A DNA stretch of 64,000 nt, taken from assembly GCF_000293805.1 (NCBI RefSeq), contig NZ_AMBZ01000001.1, forward strand, positions 1,330,001 through 1,394,000, read 5' to 3'. A model generated the notes under the pieces. That model did not search any database. It saw only the letters and a list, made by a program, of their open reading frames with translations, and was not told the DNA's origin. This DNA comes from Paenibacillus alvei DSM 29. Its GTDB lineage: Bacteria; Bacillota; Bacilli; Paenibacillales; Paenibacillaceae. Shown here in pieces: positions 26,227 through 64,000 of the stretch; the first letter of the stretch is position 1, and the number at the start of each line of letters is the position of its first letter. A program made the translations under genes and the position numbers.

Positions 26227-29200
26227 TTAGAAAATAATATCAATGACCTCTAGCACATCTTGCTCCTGTTCGTATTGCCCGTTCAGGGAAATATCCTTCA
26301 ACAGCACCGAAGGCTGTTCGCAAATTTGAGTGATGATTACGAGCAGGTTCTGAGCGAAATTGTCGATCAGATTGCGTGTGAACAACTTGGTGGCATATTC
26401 AAACTGCCCGTTCATTCCCTCATCCAGCAACGAAATGACCAAGGTAAGATCAAATTGGGAAACCGTATGCGTTTCCGGATAAGATTCGATCTTGATATCC
26501 CCGAAGTTTTGAACGTTATCTTCCTTGGTTTCCAGAGCAAACACGACATCGAATACAGGATTGCGGCTTTGATCTCGCGGAACCTGCAGCTTTTTCACAA
26601 GCTCCTCGAACGGATAATCCTGGTGGTCGTAGGCCCCCAGCATCGTTTCCTTGACTTCGTTCAAGTAAGCGAGGAACGTCTTCTCCCCGGACGGATAATG
26701 GCGAATCGCCAAAGTGTTGACAAACATTCCGATGAGCGGCTCCAGGTCGGCATGTGTGCGGCCCGAAACCGGCGTGCCTACAATGAAGTCTTCTTGTCCC
26801 GAGTACTTGCTGAGCAGGATTGAATATGCCGCCGATAACACCATATAAAGGGTGGCACCGTTCTCATCGGCGATGCGCTGCAAGCTGTCGGTCATCTGCT
26901 TGTCGATGCTGAAAGGCACCACATCTCCCTTAAAGCTGCGAGCGGCAGGTCTGACAAAGTCCGTAGGCAGTTCAAGCGTCGGCAGTTCGCCTTCCAACAC
27001 GTCCAGCCAGTAGGCTTCCTGACGTTTCAGCCGCTCTTTTACAGGTTCGGACTGCTGCCAAGCGGCGAATTCCTTGTATTGAATCCGAAGCGGTTCCAGC
27101 GTCTCGCCGTTATACAGGCGCAGCAGCTCTTCGACGAAAATGCCCATCGACATGCCATCCGTGACGATATGATGAATGTCCAGCATAAGCAGATGCCGTT
27201 CCGCTTCCCATTCGACTAAGCCCACACGCAGCAGCGGCGGCCGCTCCAAATCAAAGACACGTACAAAGCCGTCTACGATGCTCTTCGTTTCACTTTCCGT
27301 CACTTTCGTATACTCGACGGCAAACTTCAAGTCCGGATAAATCCGTTGTACCGGTACGCCGTCGACCATTTCGAAGCCGGTTCGCAAAATTTCGTGACGA
27401 GCGATCAATCCTTTGAGCGCCGCCTCGAATTGATTTCGTTCCAAGCGCCCGACGAGAACCGTCATGCCGGACATGTTGTAGCTAAGCTCGGCGCCTTCCA
27501 TCTGCTGCTGGATGTACAGCCGTTTTTGCACGGAGGAAAGCGGATAGTAATCCCTCTTCTCCAGAACCGGAATGGAGAGGTGTTCCTGTCGCTCCAATTG
27601 GCTGATCGCTTCGGCCATCGCTTCGATGGTCGAGTGCCGGAACACATCGCGCAGCGGCAGGTCCACGCTCAGCTCCTTGTGCACCTTGCTGACCAGCGTC
27701 GTCGCCCGCAGGGAGTGCCCGCCGAGATCGAAGAAGTTGTCCGTCACGCCAATCGTGACCGGCCCGAGCACGTCCTGCCAGATAGCGACCAGTTTCGCCT
27801 CCAGTTCGGTGCGCGGCGCCACGTATTCGCGGCCTGCGCTTGCTCCCCCTTCCGGCGTCGGCAGCGCCTTCCGGTCAATTTTCCCGTTCGGCGTCAGAGG
27901 CAGGCGCTCCAGCTCCACGAAGTACGACGGGATCATGTAACCCGGCAGCTCGCTCGAGATCGCCCGTTTCAGATCTGCCGCCGTCAGTTCGCCATCCGTT
28001 GTGTAGTACGCGCACAGCGCTTTCTGCCCGTTCGCGTCACTTCGAACCAGCACCACCGCTTCGCGCACGCCTTCCACCCGCAGCAGCTGCGACTCGATCT
28101 CGCCCGTCTCGATCCGGTAGCCTCGGATTTTCGCCTGGTTGTCGATCCGGCCGATGAAGTCCACATTGCCGTCCTCCATCCACCGCGCCAAGTCTCCCGT
28201 GCGGTACAGCCGCTCGCCCGCGGAGAACGGACTGTCTACGAACTTCTCTTCCGTCAGGTCCGGACGGTTCAAGTACCCGCGTGCTACCCCGACTCCGCCA
28301 ATGACCAGCTCGCCCAGCACCCCGACCGGCACCGGGTTCAGATGCGCGTCCACGATGAAGAATTTCGCATTCAGCCACGCTTTGCCGATCGGCACATGGC
28401 CTGTCTGCGGCAGCTTCGTCAGCGGCTCGTCGTAGAAACTGGAGTCGATCGCCGCTTCCGTCACGCCGTATGCGTTGATGATCCGGAACAACGAGCCGAA
28501 GCGTTCCTGCAAGGTCCGGTAATCCGCCACGCTGCAGCTGTCCGAGCTCGTGATCAACAGCTCCATCCCGCTCATATCCAGCCGCTGCTCGTGCACGTAC
28601 TCCATGAACGGCACGATCAGCGCCGGCGTCGATTCGAAGATGGTGACACGCTCCCGCTCCATCCAGTAGTGCAGACGAGACGGATCGATCCGGTCGTCCT
28701 TCGGCACAATCACCATCGTGCCTCCGTTATACAGCGTCCGCGCGATATCGCCCACGAACACGTCAAACGAAAAGCTTGCGAGTTGCAGCAGCCGCACCGG
28801 GAACTGATCCAACCGGTATTCCCGCCGGTAGCCCGCCGCCGTGTTCACCAGGCTGCGGTGCTCGATCATCACGCCCTTCGGCTTGCCCGTCGTTCCCGAC
28901 GTGTAGATCACGTACGCCAGATCCTCCGGACGGGCATCATGGAAGCTGCCCATGTCAACATTCGGATGGCTCTCATCTCCGTCATCCACAGCATCCGTCA
29001 GCTTGCCGGAGCCAATCGCCGCATTCGCCCGCTCCTCGCTGTACGACGCTTCGTCGTCGAGGTACAGCACCGCCGCCAGCGCCCGCTCCTCTTCGCCAAG
29101 CCAGGCTTCGGCGCGCTCTCGCAGCGGCATTTGCGTCAACAGTACCTTCGCTCCGCTGTCTTCAAGCATGAACCGCAGGCGGTCCGCCGGATAATCCGGG

Positions 29201-32200: not shown

Positions 32201-35200
32201 TGGCTCTCATCGCCGTCATCCACAGCATCCGTCAGCTTGCCGGAGACCATGCCGAAACCAATCGCCGCATTCCCCCGCTCCTCGCTGTACGACGCTTCGT
32301 CGTCGAGGTACAGCACCGCCGCCAGCGCCAGCTCCTCTTCGCCGAGCCAGGCTTCGGCGCGTTCTCGCAGCGGCGTTTGCGTCAGCAGCACCTTCGCTCC
32401 ACTGTCTTCAAGCATGAACCGCACGCGGTCCGCCGGATAATCCGGGTCGAGCGGCACATACGCCCCGCCCGCTTTCCAGACGGCCAGCACGGACACCAGC
32501 AGATCCATCGAACGCTCGGCGAGAATGCCGACGATCGTCTCCCGGCCGATGCCGCTTGCGCGCAGCGTGGCCGCCAAGCGGTTCGCCCGCTCGTTCAGCT
32601 CCGCATACGTCAGCCGGTCGTCCTCGTACACGACGGCCTCCGCTTCCGGCGTGCGCTCCGCCTGTTCCTCGAACAGCCGGTGGAACGCGGCCGCAGGAGC
32701 CGCTTCCGGCTGCGCCGGGTTAAACACACCGAGAATTTGGTCTTTTTCCGCCGCCGTCAAAAGCTCCAACTGATTCACGCGGATATTCGGGTTAGCCGCA
32801 ACCTTCTCCAGTGCCTGGGCAAAATGACCGTGGATCAGCCTGATGTCTTCCTCTCTGTACGTCAGCGCATTGTACGTAAACCGCAGCAAAATATGCTCTT
32901 CCGGAATGACGGTAATGTCCAGGTCGTAGTTCGTTTGCTCCGGCGACTGGATATTAGCGATTTTCAGCGCTTCTTTGTCACCGCCGACAACCTGCTCAAT
33001 TTGTTCTTCCATCGGATAATTTTCAAAGACCATGATATGGTTGATCAAGTCGCGCTTTTGTTCGCTCAGCGACTGAATTTCGAACAGCGGGAACGTTTCG
33101 TAAGCTCCCGATGCCAGCGCTTGATCCTGGGTTTTTCTCAAGATATCGGCTACCGTCTCCTCGGCTTTGCCTTGAATACGAACCGGAATCGTATTGATAA
33201 ACAGGCCGATCATGCTTTCGATGCCCGGAATTTCCGCTGGACGCCCGGATACTACGGAGCCGAATACGACATCCTCGCTGTTGTTGTATACCTGCAGAAC
33301 CAGTCCCCATACGGTCTGCATGAACGTATTGAGCGTCACCTGCTGCTGGCGCGCCACCCGCTCGATTTGCCCGGTCAGTTCCTTGCTAAGTTCCACATCG
33401 ATTTCGGCCGCTTCAAAAGCGCCCTGCTTCAGCTGCGTTTTCTCCTGAGGCAGCTTGGTCTGCTGATCGTAACCCGCCAAATACTCGGACCAGTAACGCG
33501 AAGCTTTCGCGGCATCCTGAGCTTCCAGCCATTCGATATACCGGGAGTACGAGGTAACCGGAGGAAGCTCCAGCGTCCGCTTCTCTTGGAACGCGAAGTA
33601 GGTGTCGAACACTTCCTTGATCATGAAGGACATGCACCAGCCGTCCATCAAAATGTGATGGTGACTCCAGATCACATGGTAGGACTCGTCGCCCGTGCGC
33701 AAAACGGTCACGCGCATAAGAGAGCCTTGAGCCAAATCGAACTTGTTCGCTTTATCCGCGCTGACGAAATCGGCTATCGTCTTCTCCGGGTCTTCATCGA
33801 TTGCCGAGCGAATATCTTCGAAGTACACTTCACACTTCCGCTCGCGGAATACCACTTGAATCGGCTCGTCTCTCCAGCCGGTAATAAAGTTGGTCCGCAG
33901 CGCCTCATTCCGCTGCACCAGCGTATCCAATCCTTGGGTGAAGGCTTCGACATTCAGGCTTCCATACAGATCGAAGGTCACCTGTTCGAAGTAAGCTTCC
34001 GAATCGGCATCCAGCAGGCTGTGGAACAACATCCCTTTTTGCAGCGGAGTCAGGGTGTAAACATTCTCCAGTTCGCCGAGCGCCGCCGTATGTTCAGCCA
34101 ACCGCTCCAGTTCCTCCACCGTCACATCTTGAAGCAGAACGTCGCTAGGCGTAAGCTCCGGCCGCTCTTTCGATACGCAATGGCTGATGACTTCACGCAA
34201 GCTCGAATGAAGCAGGGTGCCCAGGCGCTCTACCGTTTCCCGTTTATACTGGGTTTCCCCATAACGGATTGTGAGTTCCAGCACTCCTTCCGACACCATA
34301 CCGTTGATATCTAGGGCAAAATCTATCACTGCATTCGGGCTTGAATCGGAGCCCGGGCTGAACGGAGACGGCTGCGAGCCGCTGCTTTCGTAATCCTGGT
34401 CGAACTGACCCAAATAGTTAAAGCTGATCTCCGGCTCCAAAGCGAAGCGCTCGCCGTCACGCGGCGCCGACAAATAACGCAGGATGCCGTAGCCGATTCC
34501 TTTGTTCGGAATGCGGCGCAAGCTTTCTTTCACCTGTTTCACCTGATGACCGAACGCCTGGGCGTGACCCGGCTCCAGAACGATAGGGAATTGGCTTGTA
34601 AACCAGCCTACCGTGCGCGTAATGTCCACATCCGGCAAAATATCTTCCCGGCCGTGGCCTTCGAGATTCACCAGCACGCGTTCCCGGCCGCTCCAAGCTT
34701 GTACCGCGAGGCCGAGCGCGGCAAGCAGCAAATCGTTCATTTCTGTACGGTAAGCACGGTGTGCCTGCTTCAGCAGCTGTTCGGTTTCCTCCGCCGTCCA
34801 GCGAACGGTCACGAGCCCGCTGTCCTTCAGCTTGGATCTGCCTTGTTCAAAATCTTTCGGAAGCGGCTCATAGGTCAATTGCTCGATATGCTGCCAATAC
34901 TCTCTCTCGCTTTCCAGCGCCGGATCGTTCGCATAACCGTTCGCATAATCAGCGAGCTGTTTCGCCCACGTTTGGAATGAATCCGTTTTGAGCGGCAGAC
35001 GGATCGGCTGCCCTTGCAGCGCCTGCTCATAGCCGGCAGCAAAATCTTCAAGCAGAATCCGCCATGATACGCCGTCTACGACCAAGTGATGGATCGCGAT
35101 GAGCAGGTGGTCGCCGTCGTCGCAGCGGAACAAGCCGAGCTTCACCAGCGGGCCGTTTTCCAGATCGATACTCGCTTGAATATCATTCGCCTTAGCCTCT

Positions 35201-38200
35201 ACCGCGCCTTTCACGTCGCAGACTCCCCTGAAATCTACAACTTCCAGATCGAACAGCGCTTCGTTCTCACCGGTGCCTCGGTTCCAGGCGGTATAGCCGC
35301 TCTCGGTTTGGCGGTAAACCGTACGGAGAGCATCGTGATGCACGATAAGTTGACGCACCGCTTGGCGTAAAGCTTCTTCGTCGAAGCCTTGCTTGGAGAA
35401 CTGCATGAATGCCTGGTTGCTGTGATGCACGTCGGCCGGATTTTGTTCAAAGAACCAGCGCTGAATCGGGGTCAAGATGACCTCTCCCGTCACTTCGGCC
35501 TGGCTTGCCGTTCTCTCCGCCGTTTGCAACTGCAAACTAAGGGCGGAAATCGTCGGATAATGGAACAAATCTTTCATGACCAGCTTGTACCCCGTTTGCA
35601 AAAGACGGGACGATACCTGCAAGGCCTTGATCGAATCGCCGCCGAGCGCAAAGAAATTGTCCATCGTGCCGACCTGATCCACGCCCAGCACTGACTGCCA
35701 GACCAACGCAAGTGCTTGCTCAGCAGGAGTACGAGGCGCCGTGTATGCAGCCTCGGCACGAATGCTTCCTTCCGGCACAGGCAGCCCTTTACGGTCGATC
35801 TTCCCGTTCGGCGTAAGCGGCATTTGATCCAGGCGCATGATACGCGAAGGCACCATATGGGAAGGCAGTGCAGCGTCCAGATGGGCCACAAGCCCTTCCA
35901 GATCGAAGCTGGAACCCGCTACAACATACCCGCACAAATATTTCTGCCCCCGTTCGTCCGTCCGAGCAATAACAAGCGCTTGACGCACGCCGGCAAAATT
36001 TTGCATGATCGCTTCAATTTCACCAAGCTCGATCCGATAGCCGCGAATTTTTACCTGGTTGTCGATCCGGCCGATGAAGTCCACGTTGCCGTCCGGCATC
36101 CAGCGCGCCAGGTCGCCCGTCCGGTACAGCCGCTCCCCAGCGGCGAACGGGCTGTCTACGAATTTCTCCGCCGTCAAATCCGGGCGGTTCAAGTAACCGC
36201 GGGCCACACCCGCTCCGCCGATAACCAGCTCGCCCAACACCCCGATCGGCACCGGCTTCAGACTCGCATCCACGATGTAGAACTTGGCGTTCAGCCATGC
36301 TTTCCCGATCGGCACGCTGCCCGTCTTAGGCAGCTTCTCCAGCGGCTCGTCATAGAAGCTGGAGTCAATCGCCGCTTCCGTTACGCCGTAGCTGTTAATA
36401 ATACGGAACTGCGAGCCGAAGCGCTCCTGCAAGGTGCGGTAATCCGCTACGCTGCACGCATCCGAGCTTGTGACCAGCAACTGCATCGAGCTGAGATCCA
36501 GACCCTCGGCATACACATGCTCCATGAACGGCACGATCAGCGCCGGAGTCGATTCGAACACCGTCACGGCGTAGTCGCGAATCCAGCCGTAGAGGCGGGT
36601 TGGATCAATCCGGTCGTCCTTCGGCACGATGACCATAGTGCCGCCGTTGTACAGCGTCCGCGCAATGTCGCCGACGAACACGTCGAACGAGAAGCTGGCG
36701 AGTTGCAGCAGCCGGATCGGGAACTGATCCAGGCGGTAGTCCCGCCGGTAGCCCGCCGCCGTGTTCACCAGGCTGCGGTGTTCCACCGCCACGCCCTTCG
36801 GACGACCAGTCGTACCGGAGGTGTAGATGACGTAAGCCAAATCGCGCGGCTTGTTCACATTCGCCGGATTCGATGCAAGATCCGCTGCCAGTACGTTCTG
36901 CTCGGCTTCTGCCGTGGCGGACGTTTCGGCAGAAGCCGTTTCCGCTTGCGCCAAAGCCTCCGCCTCTGCGCCTTCTTCGCCCAAAGCTTGTACGCCTGCA
37001 GCCACTTCCGCCGCTCCGAGGCTGTACGTCGCAGCGTCATCAAGTGCAAGCACCGTTTGCAGCGCTAGAGCTCCGTCGCTGCGCCAAACTTCCGCCTGCT
37101 CCAGCAGGCGGGTCTGCGTGAGCAGAACCGACGCCCCGCTGTCCGTGAGCATATACTCGATCCGCTCCGCCGGATAATCCGGATCAAGCGGCACATAAGC
37201 GCCGCCCGCTTTCCATACGGCGAGCACCCCGATCAACAGCTCCGCCGAACGGCCGGCCAGAATGCCGACCACCTGCTCCGGCTTCACTCCGCGCGCCCGC
37301 AGTGCATACGCCAGACGATTCGCTTTGGCGTTAAGCTCCGCATACGTCAGCTTGCTGTCTTCGTAGACAACCGCCAGCGCTCCAGGAGTGCGCTCCGCCT
37401 GCTCCTCGAACAGCTCGTGGAACGTCCTCTCTCTCCACGACTCATCCGCTTCCAAACCTGTACCCTCTGCGGCGGATTGCTTCGCAAGAGCCGAAGACGA
37501 CACGTCAAACCCGACCAGCAAATCATGCTTTTCGCTGTCCGTCAATATGTCCAAATCCGAAATCCGCGCACCCGGCTGATCCAGGATCGACGCTAAAAGC
37601 TGCTCGTAATGACCCGCCAGCCGTACCATCGTTTCCTGTCTAAACAACGAGGTAGCGTACTCGATCTTGCAAACCAGTTCGTTATCGGCTTCCACGATAT
37701 CTAAGCTAAGATCAAACTTTGCCGTCTTTTCCTCGATGTCAAACAGCGACCATTGCAAGCCTTCCAGGGTTAAATCCAAGCTTTCGTGCTTTTGCAAAGA
37801 AAACATGGTGTCAAACAGCGGATTCCGGCTTAAATCCCGGCTCACCTGAAGAGCTTCCACCAGCTCCTCAAACGGATAGTCCTGGTGCTCGTAGGCTCCA
37901 AGCGTCGTTTCCTTCACTTCCTGCAAGTAATCCAGGAACGTCCGTTCCGCCGCCGGACTCAAGCGAAGGGCCAGTGTATTGACGAACATGCCGATAATCG
38001 GATGCAGGTCGGCGTGAGAACGGGCGGCAATCGGAGTGCCGACCACGATATCTTCCTGTCCCGCGTATTTATGAAGCAATACGGAGTACGCAGCCAGCAA
38101 AAGCATGTAAAGCGTCACTCCCGAATCGCCGGCAAGCCGTTTGAGAGCTTCGCTTTTCTCTGCATCCAGCGTAAACGTGAGCGTTCGACCGTCAAACTGC

Positions 38201-45180: not shown

Positions 45181-45197
45181 TTTTAGAGATTCTTTAA

Positions 45198-45383
45198 AGA
45201 GGTTGTTCAAAAAAGTCATGTTTTGATCACGAAGTGTCACAGGAAGTTTATTCGACATCGAATCTTGCGTTCACCCTCGAAGTCCGTTGCTCATGTAGTT
45301 TTGCCTACACTCCGCTACTCCTTCTTCGGGTTCTCACAACCTTTTCGGTGCTGAAAATCTGACTTTTTGAACACGCACTTATA
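45198..45383. repeat. Intergenic palindromic repeat R1 (pmxD/pmxE gap)
   Basis: About 186 bp. Ends: GAGGTTGTTCAAAAAAGTC on the left and GACTTTTTGAACACGCACTT on the right, inverted to each other. Inside it shares with R2 the blocks TTTTGATCACGAAGT, CATCGAATCTTG, GCTCATGTA, ACTCCGCTACT (CGCTCCGCTCCT in R2) and TTCGGTGCTGAAAA. The right end overlaps the pmxD stop codon; the left end stops about 20 nt before the pmxE ribosome site. Confidence 0.8.
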
Positions 45384-51900: not shown

Positions 51901-52263
51901 AGTCTGATGGCTTACGGACGTCTTGATCACCAAGATGTCATGCGGCGGCGGAGTCCCGTCGGGGTCTGCGCTATAAGAAGGCATGCCGACCAGCACTTGG
52001 TTCTGCCCGGTATATTTGAAAAGCAGGCTTTTTACTCCTGCCAAAACAATCATGTACAAAGCCAAATCCGAACCGTTGGCGAGGCGAATGATTCTCTCCG
52101 AGAGTTCGCTCGGCAGAGTACGGTGAAGCAAGCCCGGTTCGGCCGCAGCTTCCCCGTCGGCGGATAATTTGGAGGATTGACTGTAGGGAAGGAAGCTCAG
52201 GCTGTCATCAGCGTCAAACTTGCCGCTCCAGTACCGTTCTTCCTTTTCAAATAAAGATTTCAT
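48955..52263 (-). CDS. pmxB: Polymyxin synthetase PmxB: Thr10 module with cyclising thioesterase
   Basis: A 1102-residue NRPS. Residues 1-240 are only the C-terminal half of a condensation domain (DLALYMIVLAGVKSLLFKYT, then GQNQVLVGMP); the HHxxxDG half is absent and is instead at the end of PmxA. The A domain has pocket D-F-W-N-I-G-M-V-H, threonine, matching Thr10 of all polymyxins. The carrier site is GGNSLSLM. The last 240 residues are a thioesterase that releases the chain and closes the ring to the Dab4 side chain. Its nucleophile elbow reads GYCFGG with Cys936 (codon TGC at 49458-49456) instead of the usual Ser. GGGGAGG stands 5 nt before the ATG. Its stop overlaps pmxC. Confidence 0.95.
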   Translation of the reverse strand: MKSLFEKEERYWSGKFDADDSLSFLPYSQSSKLSADGEAAAEPGLLHRTLPSELSERIIRLANGSDLALYMIVLAGVKSLLFKYTGQNQVLVGMPSYSADPDGTPPPHDILVIKTSVSHQTTLKTLLGGIKASIGEALEHQHLPFPKMVEPLHLDYTVDGLSVVNTVASFAPIHPVPLGNRVAADTVFRFDRQNHSIELEISFDGQRYERAFVEQAADHLVRLLSLLLFQPDLELGQADVLSPDEREKLLKRFNDTETGFERGKTIHGLFEEQAELYPDNVAAVMNERQLTYRELNERSNRLARKLRETGVEADQLVAILAERSLDMVIGILAILKAGGAYVPVDPDYPEERIRFMIEDSGAPLLLIQKHLHEKTDFAGTRLELDDFVWGDRGTDSEGALDASNLEPISGPSNLAYVIYTSGTTGRPKGTLIEHKNVVRLLFNDKNLFNFGPSDTWTLFHSFCFDFSVWEMYGALLYGGTLVIVPPLTAKNPADFLALLGREQVTILNQTPTYFYQLLRKVLADHPYDLRIRNVIFGGEALSPLLLKGFKTKYPETKLINMYGITETTVHVTYKEITWVEMEAAKSNIGKPIPTLRVYVLDENRRPVPIGVAGEMYVAGEGLARGYLNRPDLTAEKFVDSPFAEGEKLYRSGDLAAWLPDGNIEYLGRIDHQVKIRGYRIELDEIETQLLKIAAVQEAKVLDRDDANGQKQLVAYYVAETRLAAYELKEELAKQLPGYMIPSHLVQLSRMPLTPNGKIDRKALPAPEEAAGRGAEYVAPRTLLEMKIARVWQDTLGVPQVGVKDNFFELGGNSLSLMRLVQAVYDETGIEIPLNRQFHHVTVEAMAFGEGDLGLDKGGDSFIKLNKAGDLNVFCFPPGSGFGIGYRELASRLDGRFVLYGIDFIDDAADYETMLNRYVDEIVRIQPEGPYVLLGYCFGGNLTFEVAKTMEKRGYSVTDVLMVDSWIKDMLTPSETSEKELEEMLADFDEEEKELMSNPLVRERVHQKVKATLAYEAQLINSGTIPARIYELIAKDSEAFRLEHQLPSWRGATTQAYADYRLEGAHEELLELARVDETAVVIRDILEQVKRQIEAEAGVLHGS

Positions 52264-52677: not shown

Positions 52678-55600
52678 TTAGAAGGCAAATTCGATCGTAT
52701 CGACGGCACTTTTTGCGCCTGCCGACGGTTTTTGATATTCAATCCGGCTTAGCTCGAGTTGCGGATTTTCCACAATTTGTGACAGTACCCGCAGGTAATC
52801 CTCGGTCAAGGTACGGATCGTCGCTTCTTTGAACAGCTTAGTGGCGTAGAAGAAGCCCCCGCTCAGCGCCCCGTTGTTTTCATACATAAACAGCGTCAGA
52901 TCGAACTTCGCTTCTTCCAAATTGTCAAGCTCGTAAGTCTTTAGGCTGATCCCTTCCAGCTCGACGTCTCGTTCTTCGATATTTTGCAAGTCGAAAACGG
53001 CATCGAACAGCGGGAAGCGGCCCGGCTCCCGCTTCACATTCAAACGTTCCACGAGCTCCTCGAATGGATAATCCTGGTTCTCGAAAGCACCCAAAGCCGT
53101 TTCCTTCACTTCTTCCAGGTAGGACAAAAACGTTTTGTCGCCCGACGGATGATTGCGGAGCGCCAGTGTATTGACAAACATTCCGATGACCGGTTCCAAA
53201 TCGGCGTTCGTTCTTCCCGCCACCGGGGTGCCCACGACCAAGTCCTCCTGCCCGCTGTATTTGGACAGCAGCACGGTATAAGCCGCAAGCAGCACCATGA
53301 ACAGCGTGCTTTCACGCTCGGCCGCCAATTCACGCAGCCGCGTAGAGAGAGAAGCTTCGACGTCAAACTCCAGATGTGCACCTTCGTAGCTGCGAGCCGC
53401 AGACCGTTTGTAGTCCATCGGCAGGTTCGCCGTCGGCAGCTCGCCTTTGAAGGTTTGCAGCCAGTACGCTTCCTGCCGCCCGATCCGTTCTCGGTGGGCC
53501 TTCGACAGCTGCCAAACGACATAATCCTTGTATTGAATGCGCAGTGACGGCAGCTCTTCCCCGGCGTAGAAACTCGAGAACTCATCGATCACAATCGCCA
53601 TTGATACGCCGTCGGACACCATATGGTGCATGTCGAAAATGAGAATATACAGGTTCGGCTCCAGCTCGATGACCCCGGCGCGCAGCAGCGGCGGCTTGCC
53701 GAGATCAAATGGACGAACGAAGCTGCGGACGATCTGCTCGATTTGAGCCGCATCCTCTTTATCCGCTTGATGATGCTCGACAGCAAAATCGACCTGCGGG
53801 TAAATCCGCTGAACCGCTTTGCCCTTCACGATTTCAAAACCGGTGCGCAGCGATTCATGCCGTGTTATCAATTTCCGCAAGGCGACTTCCAACCGGTCTA
53901 AATCAAGCTCGCCTTCCACCTGCACCAGTTCCGGCATGTTGTAAAGCTGATCCGCTCCATCCAGCGTGTGCTGAATGAACAGCCGTTTCTGCGCGGAGGA
54001 CAGAGGGTAGTACTCTCTCTCCTCCGCTTGAGGAATGGCCTCGTGCTCCTGCCGTTCCATCCGGGCGATCGCCTTGGCCATTGCCGCAATCGTCGAGTGA
54101 CGGAATACGTCGCGCAGCGGCAGATTGACGTTTAATTCCTTAAATACCTTGCCCGCCAGCGTTGTCGCCCGCAGGGAGTGGCCGCCGATGTCGAAGAAGT
54201 TGTCATGAACGCCAATCTCCTTCGCAAGCCCCAGCACCTCCTGCCAAATCGCCGCCAGCTTCGTTTCCAGCTCATTGCGCGGTGCGACGTACTCCGTTCC
54301 GCTTCCCGCTTCTCCTTCCGGCGCTGGCAGCGCCTTCCGGTCAATCTTTCCGTTCGGCGTCAGAGGCAGGCGCTCCAGCTCCACGAAGTACGACGGGATC
54401 ATGTAGCCCGGCAGCTCCTGCGCCAGCGCGCTGCGCAAATCGTTCACCGCCAGCTCCGCTCCGGTATCCGGCGTGTAATACGCGCATAGCGCCTTCTGCC
54501 CGTTTGCGTCACTTCGAACCAGCACCACCGCTTCGCGCACGCCTTCCACCCGCAGCAGCTGCGACTCGATTTCGCCCGTCTCAATCCGATAGCCCCGGAT
54601 TTTCGCCTGGTTGTCGATCCGGCCGATGAAGTCCACGTTCCCGTCCTCCATCCACCGCGCCAAGTCTCCCGTGCGGTACAGCCGCTCGCCCGCGGCGAAC
54701 GGGCTGTCTACAAACTTCTCTTCTGTCAGCTCCGGACGGTTCAAGTACCCGCGCGCCACGCCGACTCCGCCGATGACCAGCTCACCCAGCACCCCGACCG
54801 GCACCGGGGTCAGATTCGCGTCCACGATGTAGAATTTCGCATTCAGCCACGCTTTTCCGATCGGCACATGGCCTGTCTGCGGCAGCTTCGCCAGCGGCTC
54901 GTCGTAGAAGCTGGAGTCGATCGCCGCTTCCGTCACGCCGTAGGCGTTGATGATCCGGAACAACGAGCCGAAGCGTTCCTGCAAGGTCCGGTAATCCGCC
55001 ACGCTGCAGCTGTCCGAGCTCGTGATCAACAGCTCCATCCCGCTCATATCCAGCCCCTGCTCGTGCACATACTCCATGAACGGCACGATCAGCGCCGGCG
55101 TCGATTCGAAAATGGTGACCCGCTCCCGCTCCATCCAGTGGTGCAGACGAGACGGATCGATCCGGTCGTCCTTCGGCACAATCACCATCGTGCCTCCGTT
55201 ATACAGCGTCCGCGCGATATCTCCCACGAACACGTCAAACGAAAAGCTTGCGAGCTGCAGCAGGCGCACCGGGAACTGATCCAACCGGTATTCCCGCCGG
55301 TAGCCCGCCGCCGTGTTCACCAGGCTGCGGTGCTCGATCATGACGCCCTTCGGCTTGCCCGTCGTTCCCGACGTATAGATCACATACGCCAGATCCTCCG
55401 GACGGGCATCATGGAAGCTGCCCATGTCAACATTCGCATGGCTCTCATCGCCGTCATCCACAGCATCCGTCAGCTTGCCGGAGACCATGCCGGAACCAAT
55501 CGGCGCATTCGCCCGCTCCTCGCTGTACGACGCTTCGTCGTCGAGGTACAGCACCGCCGCCAGCGCCAGCTCCTCTTCGCCGAGCCAGGCTTCGGCGCGT

Positions 55601-58600
55601 TCTCGCAGCGCCGTTTGCGTCAACAGTACCTTCGCTCCGCTGTCTTCGAGCATGAAGCGCACGCGGTCCGCCGGATAATCCGGGTCGAGCGGCACATACG
55701 CCCCGCCCGCTTTCCAGACGGCCAGCACGGCCACCAGCAAGTCCACCGAACGCTCGGCGAGAATGCCGACGATCGTCTCCCGGCCGATGCCGCTTGCGCG
55801 CAGCGTGGCCGCCAAGCGGTTCGCCCGTTCGTTCAGCTCCGCATACGTCAGCCGGTCGTTCTCGTACACGACGGCCTCCGCTTCCGGCGTGCGCTCCGCC
55901 TGTTCCTCGAACAGCCGGTGGAACGCCGCCGCAGGAGCCGCTTCCGGCTGCGCCGGGTGAAACGCGTCGAGAATTTGGTCTTTTTCCTCTGCCGTCAACA
56001 AGTTCAGCTCGGCAATCTTCGCATCCGGACGGCTTACGATCGCTACGAGCAGCTGCTCGTAATGTTTCGCCAGCCGTTCGATCGTCTCCCTTTTGTAAAG
56101 AGACGTCGCATATTCGAAGCTGTAATCCAAGCCGCCGTTCTCCTCGCCCACATCCAAGCTGATATCAAACTTTGCGGTATCCAGTGCGCTCGGATAAGGA
56201 ATCAGGCGAAGCCCTTCCAGCTCAAATTCCTCGTCCTCCGTATTCTGCATCGTAAACAGCGTGTCGAAGAGCGGATTGCGGCTTAAATCACGGGTGACTT
56301 GCACCTTGTCCACCAATTCTTCGAACGGATAGTTTTGATGCTCGAAGGCGTGGAGGGTCGTTTCTTTGACTTCGTTCAGGTATGACAGGAATGTCTTCTC
56401 CGAAGCCGGATAACTGCGGATTGCCAGCGTGTTTAAGAACATCCCGATTAACGGCTGCACATCTCCATGATTCCTTCCGGCAATCGGCGTACCAACGATC
56501 ACATCTTCCTGACCTGAATATTTATGCAGAAGGACGTTATATGCCGCAAGCAGCACCATAAACAGCGTCGTGCCCGTTTCCGAGGCCAGTTGCCTTAGGC
56601 CGTCAGTTTTCGAAGCGTCGAAGAAAAACTCCAGCGTTTGGCCTTCGTAGCTCTGTACGGCCGGACGCGGATAGTCGGTTGGCATTTCCAGCACCGGAAG
56701 CTCGCCTTGGAACATGTTCAGCCAGTACGCCTCCTGAAGCTGAAGCCGTTCTTTCTGCTCCTGCGAATGCTGCCAAACGGTGTAGTCTTTGTACTGAATG
56801 CGCAGAGGCTCCAATTGCTCGCCGCCGTATAAGCGGACGAATTCTTCAACAAAGATTTCCATGGAGACACCGTCGGAAATAATATGATGCATGTCGTACA
56901 TTAGAATATGGCGTTCCGGAGCCAGCTCGACAAGGCCTACCCTCAGCAGCGGAGGCTTCGCCAAGTCAAACGGACGGACAAAACGGCGAACCGTCTCTTC
57001 GGCCTCTTGCTCATCTACTCGATAGAACTCCACGGCAAAATTCAAGTCCTGGTAAACCCGCTGCGATGCTTCGCCATCCACCATTTCGAATCCGGTTCGC
57101 AGCATTTCATGCCGCGCCATGAGCTTACGGAACGCTTCTTCGAACCTTGCCCGGTCCAAAGCCCCCTCCAGCAGCATCGCCTCCGGCATGTTGTAGCTAA
57201 GCTCCGCGTCTTCCAGTTGATTCAGGATAAAGAGACGTTTTTGAGCAAAAGATTGCGGGTACACCTCCCGGTCATCCGCCACCGGAATGGCAACGAATGT
57301 CTGCTCATCCAGCCGGGAAATGGCGGCCGCCATGCTCTCGATCGTGGAATGGCGGAACACGTCGCGCAGCGGCAGATCCACGCTCAGTTCCTTGTGCAAC
57401 TTGCTGACCAGCGTCGTCGCCCGCAGGGAGTGGCCGCCGATGTCGAAGAAGTTGTCGTGAACGCCAATCTCCTTCGCAAGCCCCAGCACCTCCTGCCAAA
57501 TCGCCGCCAGCTTCGTTTCCAGCTCATTGCGCGGTGCGACGTACTCCGTTCCGCTTCCCGCTTCTCCTTCCGGCGCTGGCAGCGCTTTCCGGTCAATCTT
57601 TCCGTTCGGCGTCAGAGGCAGGCGCTCCAGCTCCACGAAGTACGACGGGATCATGTACCCTGGCAGCTCCTGCGCCAGCACGCTGCGCAGAACATTCACT
57701 GCCAACTCCGCTCCGGTATCCGGCGTGTAATACGCGCATAACGCCTTCTGCCCGTTTGCGTCACTTCGAACCAGCACCACCGCTTCGCGCACGCCTTCCA
57801 CCCGCAGCAGCTGCGACTCGATCTCGCCCGTCTCAATCCGGTAGCCCCGGATTTTCGCCTGATTGTCGATCCGGCCGATGAAGTCCACGTTCCCGTCCTC
57901 CATCCACCGCGCCAAGTCTCCCGTGCGGTACAGCCGCTCGCCCGCGGCGAACGGGCTGTCTATGAACTTCTCTTCCGTCAGTTCCGGACGGTTCAAGTAT
58001 CCTCGCGCCACGCCGACTCCGCCGATGACCAGTTCACCCAGCACCCCGACCGGCACCGGGTTCAGATGCGCGTCCACGATGTAGAATTTCGCATTCAGCC
58101 ACGCTTTGCCGATCGGCACATGGCCTGTCTGCGGCAGCTTCGTCTGCTCCTCGTCGTAGAAGCTGGAGTCGATCGCCGCTTCCGTCACGCCATAAGCATT
58201 GATGATCCGGAACAACGAGCCGAAGCGTTCCTGCAAAGTCCGGTAATCCGCCACGCTGCAGCTGTCCGAGCTCGTGATCAACAGCTCCATCCCGCTCATA
58301 TCCAGCCGCTGCTCGTGCACGTACTCCATGAACGGCACGATCAGCGCCGGCGTCGATTCGAAGATCGTCACTTGCTGCTGGCTGATCCAGTAGTGCAGAC
58401 GAGACGGATCGATCCGGTCATCCTTCGGCACAATCACCATCGTGCCTCCGTTATACAGCGTCCGCGCGATATCTCCCACGAACACGTCAAACGAAAAGCT
58501 TGCGAGCTGCAGCAGTCGCACCGGGAACTGATCCAACCGGTATTCCCGCCGGTAGCCCGCCGCCGTGTTCACCAGGCTGCGGTGCTCGATCATCACGCCC

Positions 58601-61600
58601 TTCGGCTTGCCCGTCGTCCCCGACGTGTAGATCACGTACGCCAGATCCTCCGGACGGGCTTCATGGAAGCTGCCCATGTCAATATTCGGATGGCTCTCAT
58701 CGCTGGCATCCACAGCATCCGTCAGCTTGCCGGAGACCATGCCGGAGCCAATCGGCGCATTCGCCCGCTCCTCGCTGTACGACGCTTCGTCGTCGAGGTA
58801 CAGCACCGCCGCCAGCGCCAGCTCCTCTTCGCCGAGCCAGGCTTCGGCACGCTCTCGCAGCACCGTTTGCGTCAGCAGTACCTTCGCTCCGCTGTCTTCA
58901 AGCATGAACCGCAAGCGGTCTGCCGGATAATCCGGGTCGAGCGGCACATACGCCCCGCCCGCTTTCCAGACGGCCAGCACAGCCACCAGCAAATCCACCG
59001 AACGCTCGGCGAGAATGCCGACGATCGTCTCCCGGCCGATGCCGCTTGCGCGCAGCGTGGCCGCCAAGCGGTTCGCCCGCTCGTTCAGCTCCGCATACGC
59101 CAGCCGGTCGTTCTCGTACACGACGGCCTCCGCTTCCGGCGTGCGCTCCGCCTGTTCCTCGAACAGCCGGTGGAACGCTGCCGCAGGAGCCGCTCCCGGT
59201 TGCGCCGGGTTAAACGCGCCGAGAATTTGCTCTTTTTCCTCTGCCGTCAACAAGTTCAGCTCGGCGATCTTCGCATCCGGACGGCTTACGATCGCTGCAA
59301 GCAAATGTCCGAAATGAGTCGACAGCCGCCGGATCGTACTTTCTTTATAAAGAGCCGTTGCGAATTCAAAGCTGCACTCCAGGCCGCCGTTTTCTTCCGT
59401 AACATCCACACTCAGGTCGAACTTGGCCGTGCCGTATTCGCTAGGGTACTGGGACAATTTCAGCCCTTCCAGCTCAAACTCTTTATCCTCCAAGTTTTGC
59501 AGGGAGAACATCGTGTCAAACAGCGGGTTGCGGCTCAAATCCCGGCTGACCTGCACTTTATCGACGAGCTCTTCGAACGGATAATTCTGATGCTCGTAAG
59601 CGCCTAAGGTCGTTTCTTTCACTTCTTCCAGATACGACAGGAAGGTCTTCTCCGAAGCCGGATAATTGCGGAGCGCCAGCGTATTGACGAACATTCCGAT
59701 CAAAGGCTGCGTGTCTCCGTGCGTTCTGCCCGCAATCGACGTTCCGACGATCAAATCGTCCTGACCTGTGTATTTATGCAAAAGTACGGTATATGCCGCA
59801 AGCAGCACCATATACAGCGTCGTTCCTCTTTGAGCGGCCAGTTGCTTTAAGCCTTCGTTCGTTGCCTCGTCCACGAAGGATGTCAGCGTTTGTCCCTCAA
59901 AGCTCTGCACGGCAGGACGCGGATAGTCCGTCGGCATTTCCAGAACCGGCAGCTCGCCCCGGTAACGATCCAGCCAGTAAGCTTCCTCGCGTTTCAACTG
60001 CACTTTTTGCTCGTCCGACTGCTGCCATACCGCATAGTCCTTGTATTGAATGCGCAAAGGCTCTAATGACTCGCCGCCGTACAGACGAACGAGTTCCTCG
60101 ACTAACACGTCCATCGAAACCCCGTCGGAGACGATATGATGCATGTCGAACATCAGCAAATAACGTTCGGCTGCCAGCTCTACGAGCTCCGCCCGCAGCA
60201 GTGGAGGCTTCGCCAAGTCGAAAGGCCGGATGAAGGCCTGCACGACTTCAGGCGCTTCTTCCTCGCTCGCATGACGGTACTCGACGGCAAAGTCGACGCT
60301 CTCGTAAATGCGCTGTACTGCTTCGCCTTGTACGATCTCAAAGCCGGTTCGCAGCGTTTCGTGCCGTGCGATCAGTCCACGGAAAGCCTTCTCCAGCAGG
60401 CTCCGGTCAATCGATCCTTCCAGCAGCAGCACGCCCGGCATGTTGTAGCTCTGATCGGCCCCTTCCAGCTGATTCAGGATAAACAGCCGCTTCTGAGCTG
60501 AGGAAAGCGGATAGTATACTCTTGCACCTGCCAGCGGAATCGACGAGAACGACTGCTCTCCGATCCGGGAGATGGCGAGAGCCATCTCTTCGATCGTCGA
60601 GTAGCGGAATACGTCGCGCAGCGGAAGTTCGACGTTCATTTCCTTCTGAATCTTGCTGACAAGGTTCGTCGCCCGCAAGGAGTGGCCTCCGAGCTCGAAG
60701 AAATTGTCCAGGACTCCAATGCCGGAGTAGCCCAGCACTTCCTCCCAGATCTTCACAAGCTGGGACTCCGTCCGGTTACGCGGCGCTACATATTCGACGC
60801 CCGTTTGTATGCCGCCTTGCGGCTCCGGCAGCGCTTTGCGGTCCACTTTGCCGTTGGTCGTCAGCGGCATGCGCTCCAGTTGCACGAAGTACGACGGGAT
60901 CATGTACCCCGGCATTCCCTGGGCCAGCGAGGTTCTCATTTCACTGACCGTCAGCATTCGGTTCGCCACAAAGTAGGCGACAAGCGCCTTCTCGCCCCCG
61001 CCGTCCTGACGGGCGAGCACCACCGCTTCTTCCACGCCCTCGACGTTCAGAAGCTGCGTCTCGATTTCGTCCAGCTCGATCCGGTACCCGCGGATTTTGA
61101 CCTGGTCGTCGATCCGGCCCAGGTATTCGATGTTGCCGTCCGGCAGCCAAGCCGCCAAGTCGCCCGAGCGGTACAGTTTCTCTCCCTCCGCAAACGGGGA
61201 ATCGACGAACTTCTCCGCCGTCAGATCCGGACGGTTCAGGTATCCTCTCGCAAGGCCTTCCCCAGCCACGTACATTTCACCCGTTACACCAATCGGCACA
61301 GGGCGGCGGTTTTCATCCAGGACGTACACGCTTAGCGTCGGGATCGGCTTGCCGATATTGCTCTTCGCCGCCTCCATTTCGACCCACGTTATTTCCTTAT
61401 ACGTCACGTGTACCGTCGTCTCGGTAATGCCGTACATATTAATCAGCTTCGTTTCCGGGTACTTCGTCTTGAAGCCCTTGAGCAGCAGCGGACTCAGCGC
61501 TTCGCCCCCGAAGATGACGTTGCGAATCCGCAGATCGTACGGATGGTCCGCCAAGACCTCACGCAGCAGCTGGTAGAAGTACGTTGGCGTCTGGTTCAAA

Positions 61601-64000
61601 ATCGTGACCTGTTCGCGGCCCAGCAGTGCTAGGAACTCGGCCGGATTTTTCGCCGTGAGCGGCGGTACGATGACCAGCTTGCCTCCGTACAACAGCGCTC
61701 CGTACATTTCCCAGACGGAGAAATCGAAGCAGAACGAGTGGAACAGCGTCCACGTGTCGGACGGCCCGAAGTCGAACAGGTTCTTGTCGTTGAACAGGAG
61801 GCGCACGACGTTCTTATGCTCGATCAGCGTTCCTTTCGGTCTGCCGGTCGTTCCCGACGTGTAGATGACATAAGCCAGGTTGCCCGGCCCGGAAATCGGC
61901 TCCAGGTTCGAAGCGTCCAGCGCACCTTCGGAGTCCGCCCCTCTGTCGCCCCAAACGAAATCGTCCAATTCGAGGCGCGTTCCTGCGAAGTCGGTCTTCT
62001 CGTGCAGATGCTTTTGAATCAGCAATAACGGCGCGCCCGAATCCTCGATCATGAAGCGGATACGCTCCTCCGGGTAGTCGGGATCGACAGGCACGTAGGC
62101 TCCGCCCGCTTTAAGAATCGCCAGAATGCCGACGACCATATCGAGCGAGCGTTCGGCCAGAATCGCTACCAGTTGGTCCGCTTCTACTCCCGTCTCCCGC
62201 AGCTTCCGCGCAAGGCGGTTGGATCGCTCGTTCAGCTCGCGGTAGGTCAGCTGCCGCTCGTTCATGACGGCGGCCACGTTGTCCGGGTAAAGCTCCGCCT
62301 GCTCTTCGAACAATTGATTGAGCGTCTTCCGGCGCGGAAATTCCGTAGTGGTGTCGTTAAAACGTCCGAGAAGGTCGGCCTTTTCGGCCTCCGTCACAAG
62401 TTCCAGCTCACCCACGGTAATTTCCGGGTTATCCGTCACCTGCTCCAGCAGATGGACGAGATGCCCCTTGAGCCGTTCGATGCTGTCTTTATCGAACACT
62501 TCGGCGTTAAAGTCGAACCGAATTTCGATCTCGGCTCCCGGCACCACGGTCACGTTGAAGTTATAGTTCGTCTGCTCCTCCATCTGAACGTCAGTGATCG
62601 TCAGGTCGCCATGCTGCTGGTCGCCCGCCTGCTCCATCTGCTCATCCACCGGATAGTTCTCAAAAGCGATGATATGGTTGATCAGGTTTTGCTTTTGCAT
62701 GCTACGGGCTTGAATTTCATACAGCGGATAGTGATCATAACGCCCGGACTCCAGCGCCCGCTCTTGGAGCTTCGCCATCAGGTCGGCGAACACGGTGTCC
62801 CCTTCGCTCGTGACGCGGACCGGCACCGTATTGATGAACAGCCCGATCATGGACTCAATGCCCGGGATTTCCGCCGGTCTTCCGGCCACGACGCTGCCGA
62901 ATACGGCATCGTTTGTTCCGTTATATTTTTGCAGCATCACGCCCCAAGCGGCTTGCAGCAGCGTATTGACCGTAACCAGACGCTCTTTCGCCACCCGGTC
63001 CATCCGCTCGCTCAAGTCCTTGCCCAGCTCGGCGGTGACGTGATCAGCCGTAAATCTGCCGTTCGGCTGCGCTTCCTTTTGCCCCGGGAGTACGGTTTGC
63101 CCTTCGTAACCTGCCAGGAACGCCGTCCAATAGCCGGATGCCGCCTGATCGTCCTGTTTCTCTAACCATTCGATATAAGCGCCATAATCCGATCCCTTAT
63201 CTCCCACTGGCTGCTTGCCGGATGCCAAGGCCGAATACGTCTCAAACAGCTCCTGCGTCAGTTGCGGCAGGCACCAGCCGTCCATCAAAATATGCTGGAA
63301 ACTCCACAGCACATGATAGCTCTGCTCTTCGGTGCGCAGGATCGTAACCCGAACGAGTGCGTCATGTTCCATGTCGAAGCCGCGAAGCTTGTCATCCTCG
63401 GCCTTTTTATCCAAATACGCTTGTTTCTCGTCCGGCTGCAAGTGAAGCAGCTCTTCATATTCAAAACCGACCGGCTTGTCGCGGTATATGATTTGCAGCG
63501 GCTCGCCCGCTGGTCCTTTCACAAAATTCGCCCGCAGTACCAGATGACGTTTCGCAAGCTCCATCCAGCTCCTCTCGAAAAGCTGGACGTCAAGCGCTCC
63601 CCGCATCGTAAACCGCGTCTGCTCGAAGTAAGCGGCCGTTTGCCGGTCAAGCGCGCTGTGGAACCACATGCCCTTCTGCATCGGCGTAAGCGAGTAAATA
63701 TTTTCGATTTCCCCGACATGGCCCGAGCGCTGGCCGATTTGCTCCAATTCCGCGATGGTCAAGCCTTTAAATTGCACATCGCTCGGCGTCAATTCGGTGT
63801 GTTCTTTGCCTGCGCAGTGGGTAATGAGCTCTCGGAGACTTTGCTCAAGCCGCTGAGCGAAGGCTTCCATCGTTTCCTTGCGATACTGCTTCCGGCTGTA
63901 GCTAAGATCGAGCGATAGAGCGCCGTCCAGCACCATGCCGTTGATATCCAGCACAAAGCTGCGGGCCTGCCGGTCGCTGGTCGGGCTGCCGCTGGAATAA
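52678..64000 (-). CDS. pmxA: Polymyxin synthetase PmxA (partial, 5' end beyond window): end of module 6, modules 7-9 and final C domain
   Basis: The frame is open to the window edge; 3773 residues are visible. It begins inside an epimerisation domain (FVLDINGMVLDGALSLDLSY), so residue 6 is D. Then C7 (63710-62400), A7-T7 (62370-60570), C8 (60530-59240), A8-T8 (59190-57310), C9 (57270-55980), A9-T9 (55950-54070) and a complete terminal C10 (54020-52720, HHMVSDG). Pockets: A7 D-F-W-N-I-G-M-V-H = Thr; A8 and A9 D-V-G-E-I-S-A-I-D = 2,4-diaminobutyrate. C7 is of the type that follows an E domain (LTPMQKGMWFHS), with QHILMDGW: the first His of HHxxxDG is Gln, the catalytic second His is kept. Thr at position 7 excludes polymyxins B and E. 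The gene leads the cluster; R2 follows its stop. Confidence 0.95.
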   Translation of the reverse strand, partial: YSSGSPTSDRQARSFVLDINGMVLDGALSLDLSYSRKQYRKETMEAFAQRLEQSLRELITHCAGKEHTELTPSDVQFKGLTIAELEQIGQRSGHVGEIENIYSLTPMQKGMWFHSALDRQTAAYFEQTRFTMRGALDVQLFERSWMELAKRHLVLRANFVKGPAGEPLQIIYRDKPVGFEYEELLHLQPDEKQAYLDKKAEDDKLRGFDMEHDALVRVTILRTEEQSYHVLWSFQHILMDGWCLPQLTQELFETYSALASGKQPVGDKGSDYGAYIEWLEKQDDQAASGYWTAFLAGYEGQTVLPGQKEAQPNGRFTADHVTAELGKDLSERMDRVAKERLVTVNTLLQAAWGVMLQKYNGTNDAVFGSVVAGRPAEIPGIESMIGLFINTVPVRVTSEGDTVFADLMAKLQERALESGRYDHYPLYEIQARSMQKQNLINHIIAFENYPVDEQMEQAGDQQHGDLTITDVQMEEQTNYNFNVTVVPGAEIEIRFDFNAEVFDKDSIERLKGHLVHLLEQVTDNPEITVGELELVTEAEKADLLGRFNDTTTEFPRRKTLNQLFEEQAELYPDNVAAVMNERQLTYRELNERSNRLARKLRETGVEADQLVAILAERSLDMVVGILAILKAGGAYVPVDPDYPEERIRFMIEDSGAPLLLIQKHLHEKTDFAGTRLELDDFVWGDRGADSEGALDASNLEPISGPGNLAYVIYTSGTTGRPKGTLIEHKNVVRLLFNDKNLFDFGPSDTWTLFHSFCFDFSVWEMYGALLYGGKLVIVPPLTAKNPAEFLALLGREQVTILNQTPTYFYQLLREVLADHPYDLRIRNVIFGGEALSPLLLKGFKTKYPETKLINMYGITETTVHVTYKEITWVEMEAAKSNIGKPIPTLSVYVLDENRRPVPIGVTGEMYVAGEGLARGYLNRPDLTAEKFVDSPFAEGEKLYRSGDLAAWLPDGNIEYLGRIDDQVKIRGYRIELDEIETQLLNVEGVEEAVVLARQDGGGEKALVAYFVANRMLTVSEMRTSLAQGMPGYMIPSYFVQLERMPLTTNGKVDRKALPEPQGGIQTGVEYVAPRNRTESQLVKIWEEVLGYSGIGVLDNFFELGGHSLRATNLVSKIQKEMNVELPLRDVFRYSTIEEMALAISRIGEQSFSSIPLAGARVYYPLSSAQKRLFILNQLEGADQSYNMPGVLLLEGSIDRSLLEKAFRGLIARHETLRTGFEIVQGEAVQRIYESVDFAVEYRHASEEEAPEVVQAFIRPFDLAKPPLLRAELVELAAERYLLMFDMHHIVSDGVSMDVLVEELVRLYGGESLEPLRIQYKDYAVWQQSDEQKVQLKREEAYWLDRYRGELPVLEMPTDYPRPAVQSFEGQTLTSFVDEATNEGLKQLAAQRGTTLYMVLLAAYTVLLHKYTGQDDLIVGTSIAGRTHGDTQPLIGMFVNTLALRNYPASEKTFLSYLEEVKETTLGAYEHQNYPFEELVDKVQVSRDLSRNPLFDTMFSLQNLEDKEFELEGLKLSQYPSEYGTAKFDLSVDVTEENGGLECSFEFATALYKESTIRRLSTHFGHLLAAIVSRPDAKIAELNLLTAEEKEQILGAFNPAQPGAAPAAAFHRLFEEQAERTPEAEAVVYENDRLAYAELNERANRLAATLRASGIGRETIVGILAERSVDLLVAVLAVWKAGGAYVPLDPDYPADRLRFMLEDSGAKVLLTQTVLRERAEAWLGEEELALAAVLYLDDEASYSEERANAPIGSGMVSGKLTDAVDASDESHPNIDMGSFHEARPEDLAYVIYTSGTTGKPKGVMIEHRSLVNTAAGYRREYRLDQFPVRLLQLASFSFDVFVGDIARTLYNGGTMVIVPKDDRIDPSRLHYWISQQQVTIFESTPALIVPFMEYVHEQRLDMSGMELLITSSDSCSVADYRTLQERFGSLFRIINAYGVTEAAIDSSFYDEEQTKLPQTGHVPIGKAWLNAKFYIVDAHLNPVPVGVLGELVIGGVGVARGYLNRPELTEEKFIDSPFAAGERLYRTGDLARWMEDGNVDFIGRIDNQAKIRGYRIETGEIESQLLRVEGVREAVVLVRSDANGQKALCAYYTPDTGAELAVNVLRSVLAQELPGYMIPSYFVELERLPLTPNGKIDRKALPAPEGEAGSGTEYVAPRNELETKLAAIWQEVLGLAKEIGVHDNFFDIGGHSLRATTLVSKLHKELSVDLPLRDVFRHSTIESMAAAISRLDEQTFVAIPVADDREVYPQSFAQKRLFILNQLEDAELSYNMPEAMLLEGALDRARFEEAFRKLMARHEMLRTGFEMVDGEASQRVYQDLNFAVEFYRVDEQEAEETVRRFVRPFDLAKPPLLRVGLVELAPERHILMYDMHHIISDGVSMEIFVEEFVRLYGGEQLEPLRIQYKDYTVWQHSQEQKERLQLQEAYWLNMFQGELPVLEMPTDYPRPAVQSYEGQTLEFFFDASKTDGLRQLASETGTTLFMVLLAAYNVLLHKYSGQEDVIVGTPIAGRNHGDVQPLIGMFLNTLAIRSYPASEKTFLSYLNEVKETTLHAFEHQNYPFEELVDKVQVTRDLSRNPLFDTLFTMQNTEDEEFELEGLRLIPYPSALDTAKFDISLDVGEENGGLDYSFEYATSLYKRETIERLAKHYEQLLVAIVSRPDAKIAELNLLTAEEKDQILDAFHPAQPEAAPAAAFHRLFEEQAERTPEAEAVVYENDRLTYAELNERANRLAATLRASGIGRETIVGILAERSVDLLVAVLAVWKAGGAYVPLDPDYPADRVRFMLEDSGAKVLLTQTALRERAEAWLGEEELALAAVLYLDDEASYSEERANAPIGSGMVSGKLTDAVDDGDESHANVDMGSFHDARPEDLAYVIYTSGTTGKPKGVMIEHRSLVNTAAGYRREYRLDQFPVRLLQLASFSFDVFVGDIARTLYNGGTMVIVPKDDRIDPSRLHHWMERERVTIFESTPALIVPFMEYVHEQGLDMSGMELLITSSDSCSVADYRTLQERFGSLFRIINAYGVTEAAIDSSFYDEPLAKLPQTGHVPIGKAWLNAKFYIVDANLTPVPVGVLGELVIGGVGVARGYLNRPELTEEKFVDSPFAAGERLYRTGDLARWMEDGNVDFIGRIDNQAKIRGYRIETGEIESQLLRVEGVREAVVLVRSDANGQKALCAYYTPDTGAELAVNDLRSALAQELPGYMIPSYFVELERLPLTPNGKIDRKALPAPEGEAGSGTEYVAPRNELETKLAAIWQEVLGLAKEIGVHDNFFDIGGHSLRATTLAGKVFKELNVNLPLRDVFRHSTIAAMAKAIARMERQEHEAIPQAEEREYYPLSSAQKRLFIQHTLDGADQLYNMPELVQVEGELDLDRLEVALRKLITRHESLRTGFEIVKGKAVQRIYPQVDFAVEHHQADKEDAAQIEQIVRSFVRPFDLGKPPLLRAGVIELEPNLYILIFDMHHMVSDGVSMAIVIDEFSSFYAGEELPSLRIQYKDYVVWQLSKAHRERIGRQEAYWLQTFKGELPTANLPMDYKRSAARSYEGAHLEFDVEASLSTRLRELAAERESTLFMVLLAAYTVLLSKYSGQEDLVVGTPVAGRTNADLEPVIGMFVNTLALRNHPSGDKTFLSYLEEVKETALGAFENQDYPFEELVERLNVKREPGRFPLFDAVFDLQNIEERDVELEGISLKTYELDNLEEAKFDLTLFMYENNGALSGGFFYATKLFKEATIRTLTEDYLRVLSQIVENPQLELSRIEYQKPSAGAKSAVDTIEFAF

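Follow-up and report, generated by a model that had tools for sequence, protein, structure and literature searches.

The 64 000-nucleotide stretch of DNA analyzed here (the window; C5:1330001-1394000) carries, with a short continuation on the same contig, what is very probably a complete polymyxin synthetase specifying polymyxin A. The predicted residues are Dab-Thr-D-Dab-Dab-Dab-D-Leu-Thr-Dab-Dab-Thr, and the prediction of polymyxin A stems from the Leu pocket of module 6, the Thr at residue 7, and the expected D-Dab3 and D-Leu6. A preliminary description of the window had predicted polymyxin A or P; the pocket DAWIVGAI in module 6 narrows this to A.

Layout of the gene cluster

The pmx gene set consists of three NRPS genes, with five, four and one modules, respectively, and two ABC transporter genes, in a genome of 6.83 Mb that contains 111 Condensation-domain matches. 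The minus-strand open frames in 26227-64000 are pmxE (26227-45258), the two transporter genes of the PmxC/PmxD type (45379-47163, 594 aa, and 47139-48965, 608 aa, both with PF00664 and PF00005), pmxB (48955-52263) and most of pmxA (52678-64000). The whole of pmxA encodes 5010 aa and extends to C5:1397710, 3710 bases past the window edge on the same contig. All five reading frames are open, and the pmxA-E gene set recognized in the preliminary description thus stands, with pmxA now completed. The full-length condensation (C) domains of the cluster give Pfam Condensation matches of up to 460.7 bits, which do not arise by chance.

PmxE (6343 aa) comprises five modules that, after a putative starter C domain, are predicted to incorporate Dab1-Thr2-D-Dab3-Dab4-Dab5, and ends with a complete C domain followed by the tail LEVIDIIF. 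The starter domain (43855-45195, minus strand; C5:1373855-1375195) is distinct from the other C domains: its first motif is NHIIADG, it forms a long branch of its own, and 36 other genomes have a first C domain homologous to it. Its putative fatty-acylating role is carried over from PmxE of Paenibacillus polymyxa M-1, for which the first C domain is described as the starter (PMC3708778). The in-window part of PmxA contains modules 7-9, the C domain C7 and the end of the module-6 epimerization (E) domain, and the whole gene would specify D-Leu6-Thr7-Dab8-Dab9. PmxB (1102 aa) consists of a half C domain, an adenylation domain for Thr10, a T domain and a terminal thioesterase (PF00975, E 4.6e-29).

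The surroundings of the cluster show several features of their own. An IS30-family transposase fragment (25132-25821, plus strand; NF033563, 151.6 bits) adjoins the end of pmxE. Further to the left, a 6-phosphogluconate dehydrogenase frame (12885-14048, minus strand, 387 aa) is grouped with genes for zwf, transketolase and transaldolase; it aligns with a 476-position model over positions 1-373 only and is possibly truncated. The G+C content is 52-59% in the synthetase genes (28001-64000) vs 39-48% in the left flank (1-24000).

Adenylation pockets and the predicted peptide

By motif scan, PmxE has five A3 motifs, PmxA four and PmxB one. The ten pockets were read by one rule, for which the published Dab and Thr codes (PMC3708778, Table 2) served to calibrate the positions. 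In PmxE, the pockets are DVGEISSI (module 1), DFWNIGMV (module 2), DVGEVSSI (module 3) and DVGEISAI (modules 4 and 5); in PmxA, DAWIVGAI (module 6), DFWNIGMV (module 7) and DVGEISAI (modules 8 and 9); and in PmxB, DFWNIGMV (module 10). Re-reading leaves unchanged all the calls of the preliminary description, that is, Dab1-Thr2-Dab3-Dab4-Dab5, Thr7-Dab8-Dab9 and Thr10, and adds module 6, which lies past position 64000 and has a Leu-like pocket.

The Dab pockets at positions 1, 3, 4, 5, 8 and 9 and the Thr pocket at position 2 are those expected of a polymyxin synthetase, and the combination of Leu6 and Thr7 is that of polymyxin A; the Phe6 of polymyxin P and the Leu7 of polymyxins B and E are absent. 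The ten pockets coincide with the P. polymyxa E681 rows of Table 2 in PMC3708778 except for module 3, where Val replaces an Ile that is found in the three published codes and in all 11 relatives in which this pocket was read; this substitution is counted as a point against the polymyxin A reading. Single-letter variants aside, the ten-pocket set is present in four of the nine same-genus clusters compared.

Polymyxin P, with D-Phe6, is a very improbable product. P-type clusters that combine E3 with Thr7 do exist (G141 and G142, with DAWTIAAI in module 6), and module 6 was outside the view of the preliminary description. However, the same Table 2 gives DAWTIAAI as the code of the Phe module and DAWIVGAI as the D-Leu6 code of E681 pmxA1, and it is the latter that is found here; on this pocket, polymyxin P was rejected.

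For polymyxin A, the order of synthesis, along with fatty acylation, cyclization and export, is inferred from published polymyxin systems. The starter C domain of PmxE would load the fatty acid, after which PmxE would add Dab1, Thr2, Dab3 (converted to D by E3), Dab4 and Dab5; PmxA would add Leu6 (converted to D by E6), Thr7, Dab8 and Dab9; and PmxB would add Thr10, with its thioesterase releasing and cyclizing the peptide. The two ABC proteins are probable exporters of the peptide.

Comparison with published polymyxin clusters

The closest counterpart among the known systems, judged by published codes and lengths, is the polymyxin A cluster of E681. It agrees in gene set, number of modules, amino-acid calls, the presence of E3 and E6, and PmxB length (1102 aa), but differs in the Ile of module 3 (Val here), in PmxE (6312 aa, compared with 6343 here) and in PmxA (4953 aa, compared with 5010 here). 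LC-MS of the wild type and of a strain with pmxE knocked out confirmed that E681 makes polymyxin A (PMC6429003). By description, like clusters yield polymyxin A in P. dendritiformis PV3-16 (PMC6265310) and polymyxin A1, with a mass of about 1156.7 Da, in P. thiaminolyticus SY20 (PMC9701815). The polymyxin P cluster of M-1 shares the gene set, E3, Thr7 and the lengths of PmxA (5010 aa) and PmxB (1102 aa), but has a Phe pocket in module 6 (DAWTIAAI; PMC3708778). The colistin cluster of P. polymyxa P4 is alike in overall architecture but lacks E3 and has Leu7, whereas the earlier published polymyxin clusters have E3, according to PMC8532632; among the genomes compared, G139 matches the P4 cluster in both of these features.

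Epimerization domains and the configuration of residue 3

Modules 3 and 6 each have an E domain after the carrier domain; the preliminary description had noted one after module 3 and the end of another before module 7. Both keep the HHxxxDG and EGHGRE motifs. The first, E3 (34177-35481, minus strand; C5:1364177-1365481), has HHLVVDG and EGHGRE; the second, of which only the end (63769-64000) is in the window, occupies C5:1393769-1395109 on the minus strand and has HHAVVDG and EGHGRE. The domain next to each is a DCL-like C domain, C4 after E3 (32731-34068; C5:1362731-1364068) and C7 after E6 (62368-63705; C5:1392368-1393705), both on the minus strand. A tree was built from 24 C and E domains, taken from this cluster and a single relative; in it, C4 and C7 form their own clade (support 100/99) apart from the other C domains, with a long-branch warning at the E, DCL-like and starter clades. 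DCL domains accept a D residue, and a separate clade of C4 and C7 is the pattern predicted if they do so here. D-Dab3 and D-Leu6 are therefore the expected residues, as had been predicted, and the sequence gives no sign of an inactive E3 or of a Leu at residue 7: the E3 motifs are kept, a DCL-like C domain comes next, and module 7 has a Thr pocket.

A product with L-Dab3, that is, polymyxin M made with a silent E3, has very little probability. Dab3 is the sole difference between polymyxins A and M (PMC6265310), and two complete relatives without E3 show that epimerization at residue 3 is dispensable in evolution. However, the absence of epimerization at module 3 that would mark an M-type cluster is not what is found: E3 is present with intact motifs, between a GGDS-type carrier and the DCL-like C4, whereas the two relatives without E3 (G139 and G140) also have a different carrier motif and a different motif in the next C domain. 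In P. dendritiformis, an E3-bearing cluster made polymyxin A, with L and D Dab at a ratio of ~5:1 by Marfey analysis (PMC6265310).

In the family, 394 genomes were searched for the PmxE starter domain and E3. The starter domain is present in 37 genomes, 34 of which have E3; the exceptions are G139, G140 and G160. The last, apparently the BJ-4 genome by its contig number and matching positions, cannot be judged for E3, given that its contig shows no more than an open frame of 1401 residues containing module 1. Pockets of both module 6 and module 7 were obtained from 30 of the 37 genomes, the others (G118, G120, G132, G143, G158, G160 and G302) being interrupted by a contig end or not fetched. 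Pockets of the DGFFLG kind were taken to be specific for Ile. For the pocket DGFLLGLV, Leu is given in Table 2 of PMC3708778. Among the 30 clusters, Leu6 is combined with Thr7 in 5 (the present one and four close relatives) and with a Leu/Ile-type residue 7 in 20, and Phe6 with Thr7 in 2 and with a Leu/Ile-type residue 7 in 3. E3 accompanies all 7 Thr7 clusters and 21 of the 23 Leu/Ile7 clusters; in 19 of the 20 Leu6-Leu/Ile7 clusters, its presence predicts a D residue at position 3. Module 3 was read in 11 relatives, and elsewhere E3 tells only the D configuration of residue 3, which in macolacin of P. xylanexedens is D-Ser (PMC11019560).

E3 was thus rejected as a marker of types A and P. 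The preliminary description had taken D-Dab3 together with Thr7 to disagree with polymyxins B, E and M, and the conclusion holds with its grounds divided: Thr7 excludes B and E, and E3 separates A from M, but E3 alone cannot exclude B or E because most Leu/Ile7 clusters have it and because a D-Dab3 polymyxin B has been published, as named in PMC8532632.

The complete clusters without E3 are those of G140 (Phe6, Leu7, Thr10) and G139 (Leu6, Leu7, Thr10), an architecture that is expected, from sequence, for the classical L-Dab3 forms of B and E. Both have a GGHS-type carrier, and their next C domain has the ordinary motif of elongation domains; given that the carrier and the next C motif differ too, the carrier-E-C block changed as a unit. 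In both genomes (loci L196 and L197), a carrier-LCL-like block stands in place of the carrier-E-DCL block. In this survey, epimerization at residue 3 is set by a separate exchange (carrier-E-DCL vs carrier-LCL), independent of residues 6 and 7.

Two further observations come from the survey. The PmxE frame of G139 is broken into parts of 4235 and 1685 residues. In six genomes (G004, G005, G182, G183, G147 and G120), module 10 of PmxB has the Leu pocket DAWIVGAI instead of a Thr pocket, so that Leu10 polymyxins are predicted; three of these Leu10 clusters (G182, G183 and G147) have the pocket DGFFLGVI at module 7.

Exchange of the module-7 adenylation segment

When PmxA is compared with three Leu/Ile7 relatives, identity is 84-98% before residue 1800 (in the bins printed), falls to 26-74% in the 50-residue bins of residues 1801-2350, and returns to 86-100% from residue 2351 to 2650. 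The exchanged segment (approximately 60631-62313, minus strand) is of the Thr type here and of the Leu/Ile type in the relatives compared. Judged by these profiles, module 7 is exchanged as a clean adenylation block. The module-7 segment of the present cluster is 95.3% identical at the protein level to its own module 2, and in G015 (L116-L118) the A2 and A7 segments are 99.9% identical in DNA, a sign of recent gene conversion between Thr modules; both likenesses fit copying between Thr modules. The corresponding exchange of A7 between polymyxins A and E has been made by engineers (PMC6429003).

Tails and half C domains at the subunit junctions

PmxE and PmxA both end with a complete C domain (26260-27555 in PmxE and 52732-54015 in PmxA, minus strand, recognized by Pfam Condensation and motifs) followed by a conserved tail that ends in IDIIF or IEFAF, the full PmxA tail being VDTIEFAF. 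PmxA and PmxB, in turn, start with half C domains, which match Pfam Condensation at positions 190-456 and 189-456 only, respectively, and have no catalytic motif (in PmxB, 51514-52257, minus strand, E 7.6e-16, with no HHxxxDG). PmxE, the last gene of the set, is tailed all the same, and PmxA, the first gene, nevertheless opens with a half C domain. The placement of tails and half C domains thus matches the order in which the subunits would act (E to A to B) and not that in which their genes lie (A, B, then E).

The tail motif, a hydrophobic residue, a mostly acidic one, a hydrophobic one, any residue and Phe, occurs in 46 of the 48 NRPS genes that precede a half C domain, a count that is partly circular because the motif was defined after part of the tails had been viewed, compared with 1 of the 23 that precede another NRPS start, a control class that was not inspected beforehand. 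The junction loci overlap and are related, with 26 distinct nine-residue tails among the 46, and 120 of the 129 candidates are covered, most of them lacking an upstream gene in the locus. The one gene of the control class that has the motif, L059, is adjoined by a half-C fragment, and at the two half-C junctions that lack it the upstream genes end in ADKDGDFDI and ELGLIEISI. Among the 90 genes that have no NRPS neighbor in the locus, 15 carry the tail; of the five endings that they show, four are shared with PmxE or PmxA. Another NRPS cluster of the same genome (contig C12) has the half C domain and the tail at two junctions (EEEIDFAF and DSIEFAF), and the pair is present also in Bacillus and Brevibacillus loci.

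The tail and the half C domain, which corresponds to the C-terminal lobe, might form a docking pair of NRPS subunits in their own right, common to the Bacillus, Brevibacillus and Paenibacillus loci, a proposal that is put forward tentatively. The half C domain was modeled with low confidence (mean pLDDT of 54); the model has 554 PDB matches at E up to 10, and the 50 listed are NRPS proteins or single condensation-type domains, so that the resemblance of the model to C domains lends weak support. No description of such a pair was found in the literature searched, including the portions of PMC9113145, PMC3039948, PMC11546977, PMC8949500 and PMC11186497 that were covered; an N-terminal truncated C domain is mentioned for the thermoactinoamide synthetase (PMC7253712).

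Supply of Dab

Polymyxin production by the strain is uncertain, in contrast to the specification, which is firmly predicted. Beyond the window, 690 bases upstream of pmxA and on the same strand, lies an ectB-like L-Dab transaminase gene (C5:1398400-1399578, minus strand; NF006733, 571.7 bits), the product of which lacks 38 residues that are present in the 14 relatives aligned over the full length. The deletion, 114 bases and in frame, is seen in all six DNA comparisons, and in five of these six relatives it is bounded by an 8-base direct repeat. A search of the genome with the ectB model found no second gene of that grade, the next match scoring 193.1 bits; this model also gives weak matches in each of the 14 control genomes. 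Production is doubtful because the ectB-like gene looks damaged and has no second copy of that grade by this model, so that Dab may run short.

It is quite conceivable, if short of probable, that the intact cluster yields little or no polymyxin unless Dab is fed, and B. subtilis carrying pmx indeed needs added L-Dab or ectB (PMC6429003). On the other side, an error in the assembly could account for the deletion, the shortened protein could retain activity, or another aminotransferase, outside the reach of a search with the ectB model, could supply Dab. Such a shortage would concern supply and is compatible with the specification of polymyxin A.

Implications

Polymyxin A synthetases have already been published from E681, P. 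dendritiformis and P. thiaminolyticus, and the present cluster adds one more. More useful than the type call are the independence of E3 from the polymyxin type, the clean exchange of the A7 block, and the pairing of tails with half C domains. E3 by itself is no basis for assigning a polymyxin type. If the tail and the half C domain do dock subunits, the assembly of the synthetase against the gene order would be explained, and the pair would offer a handle for re-engineering.
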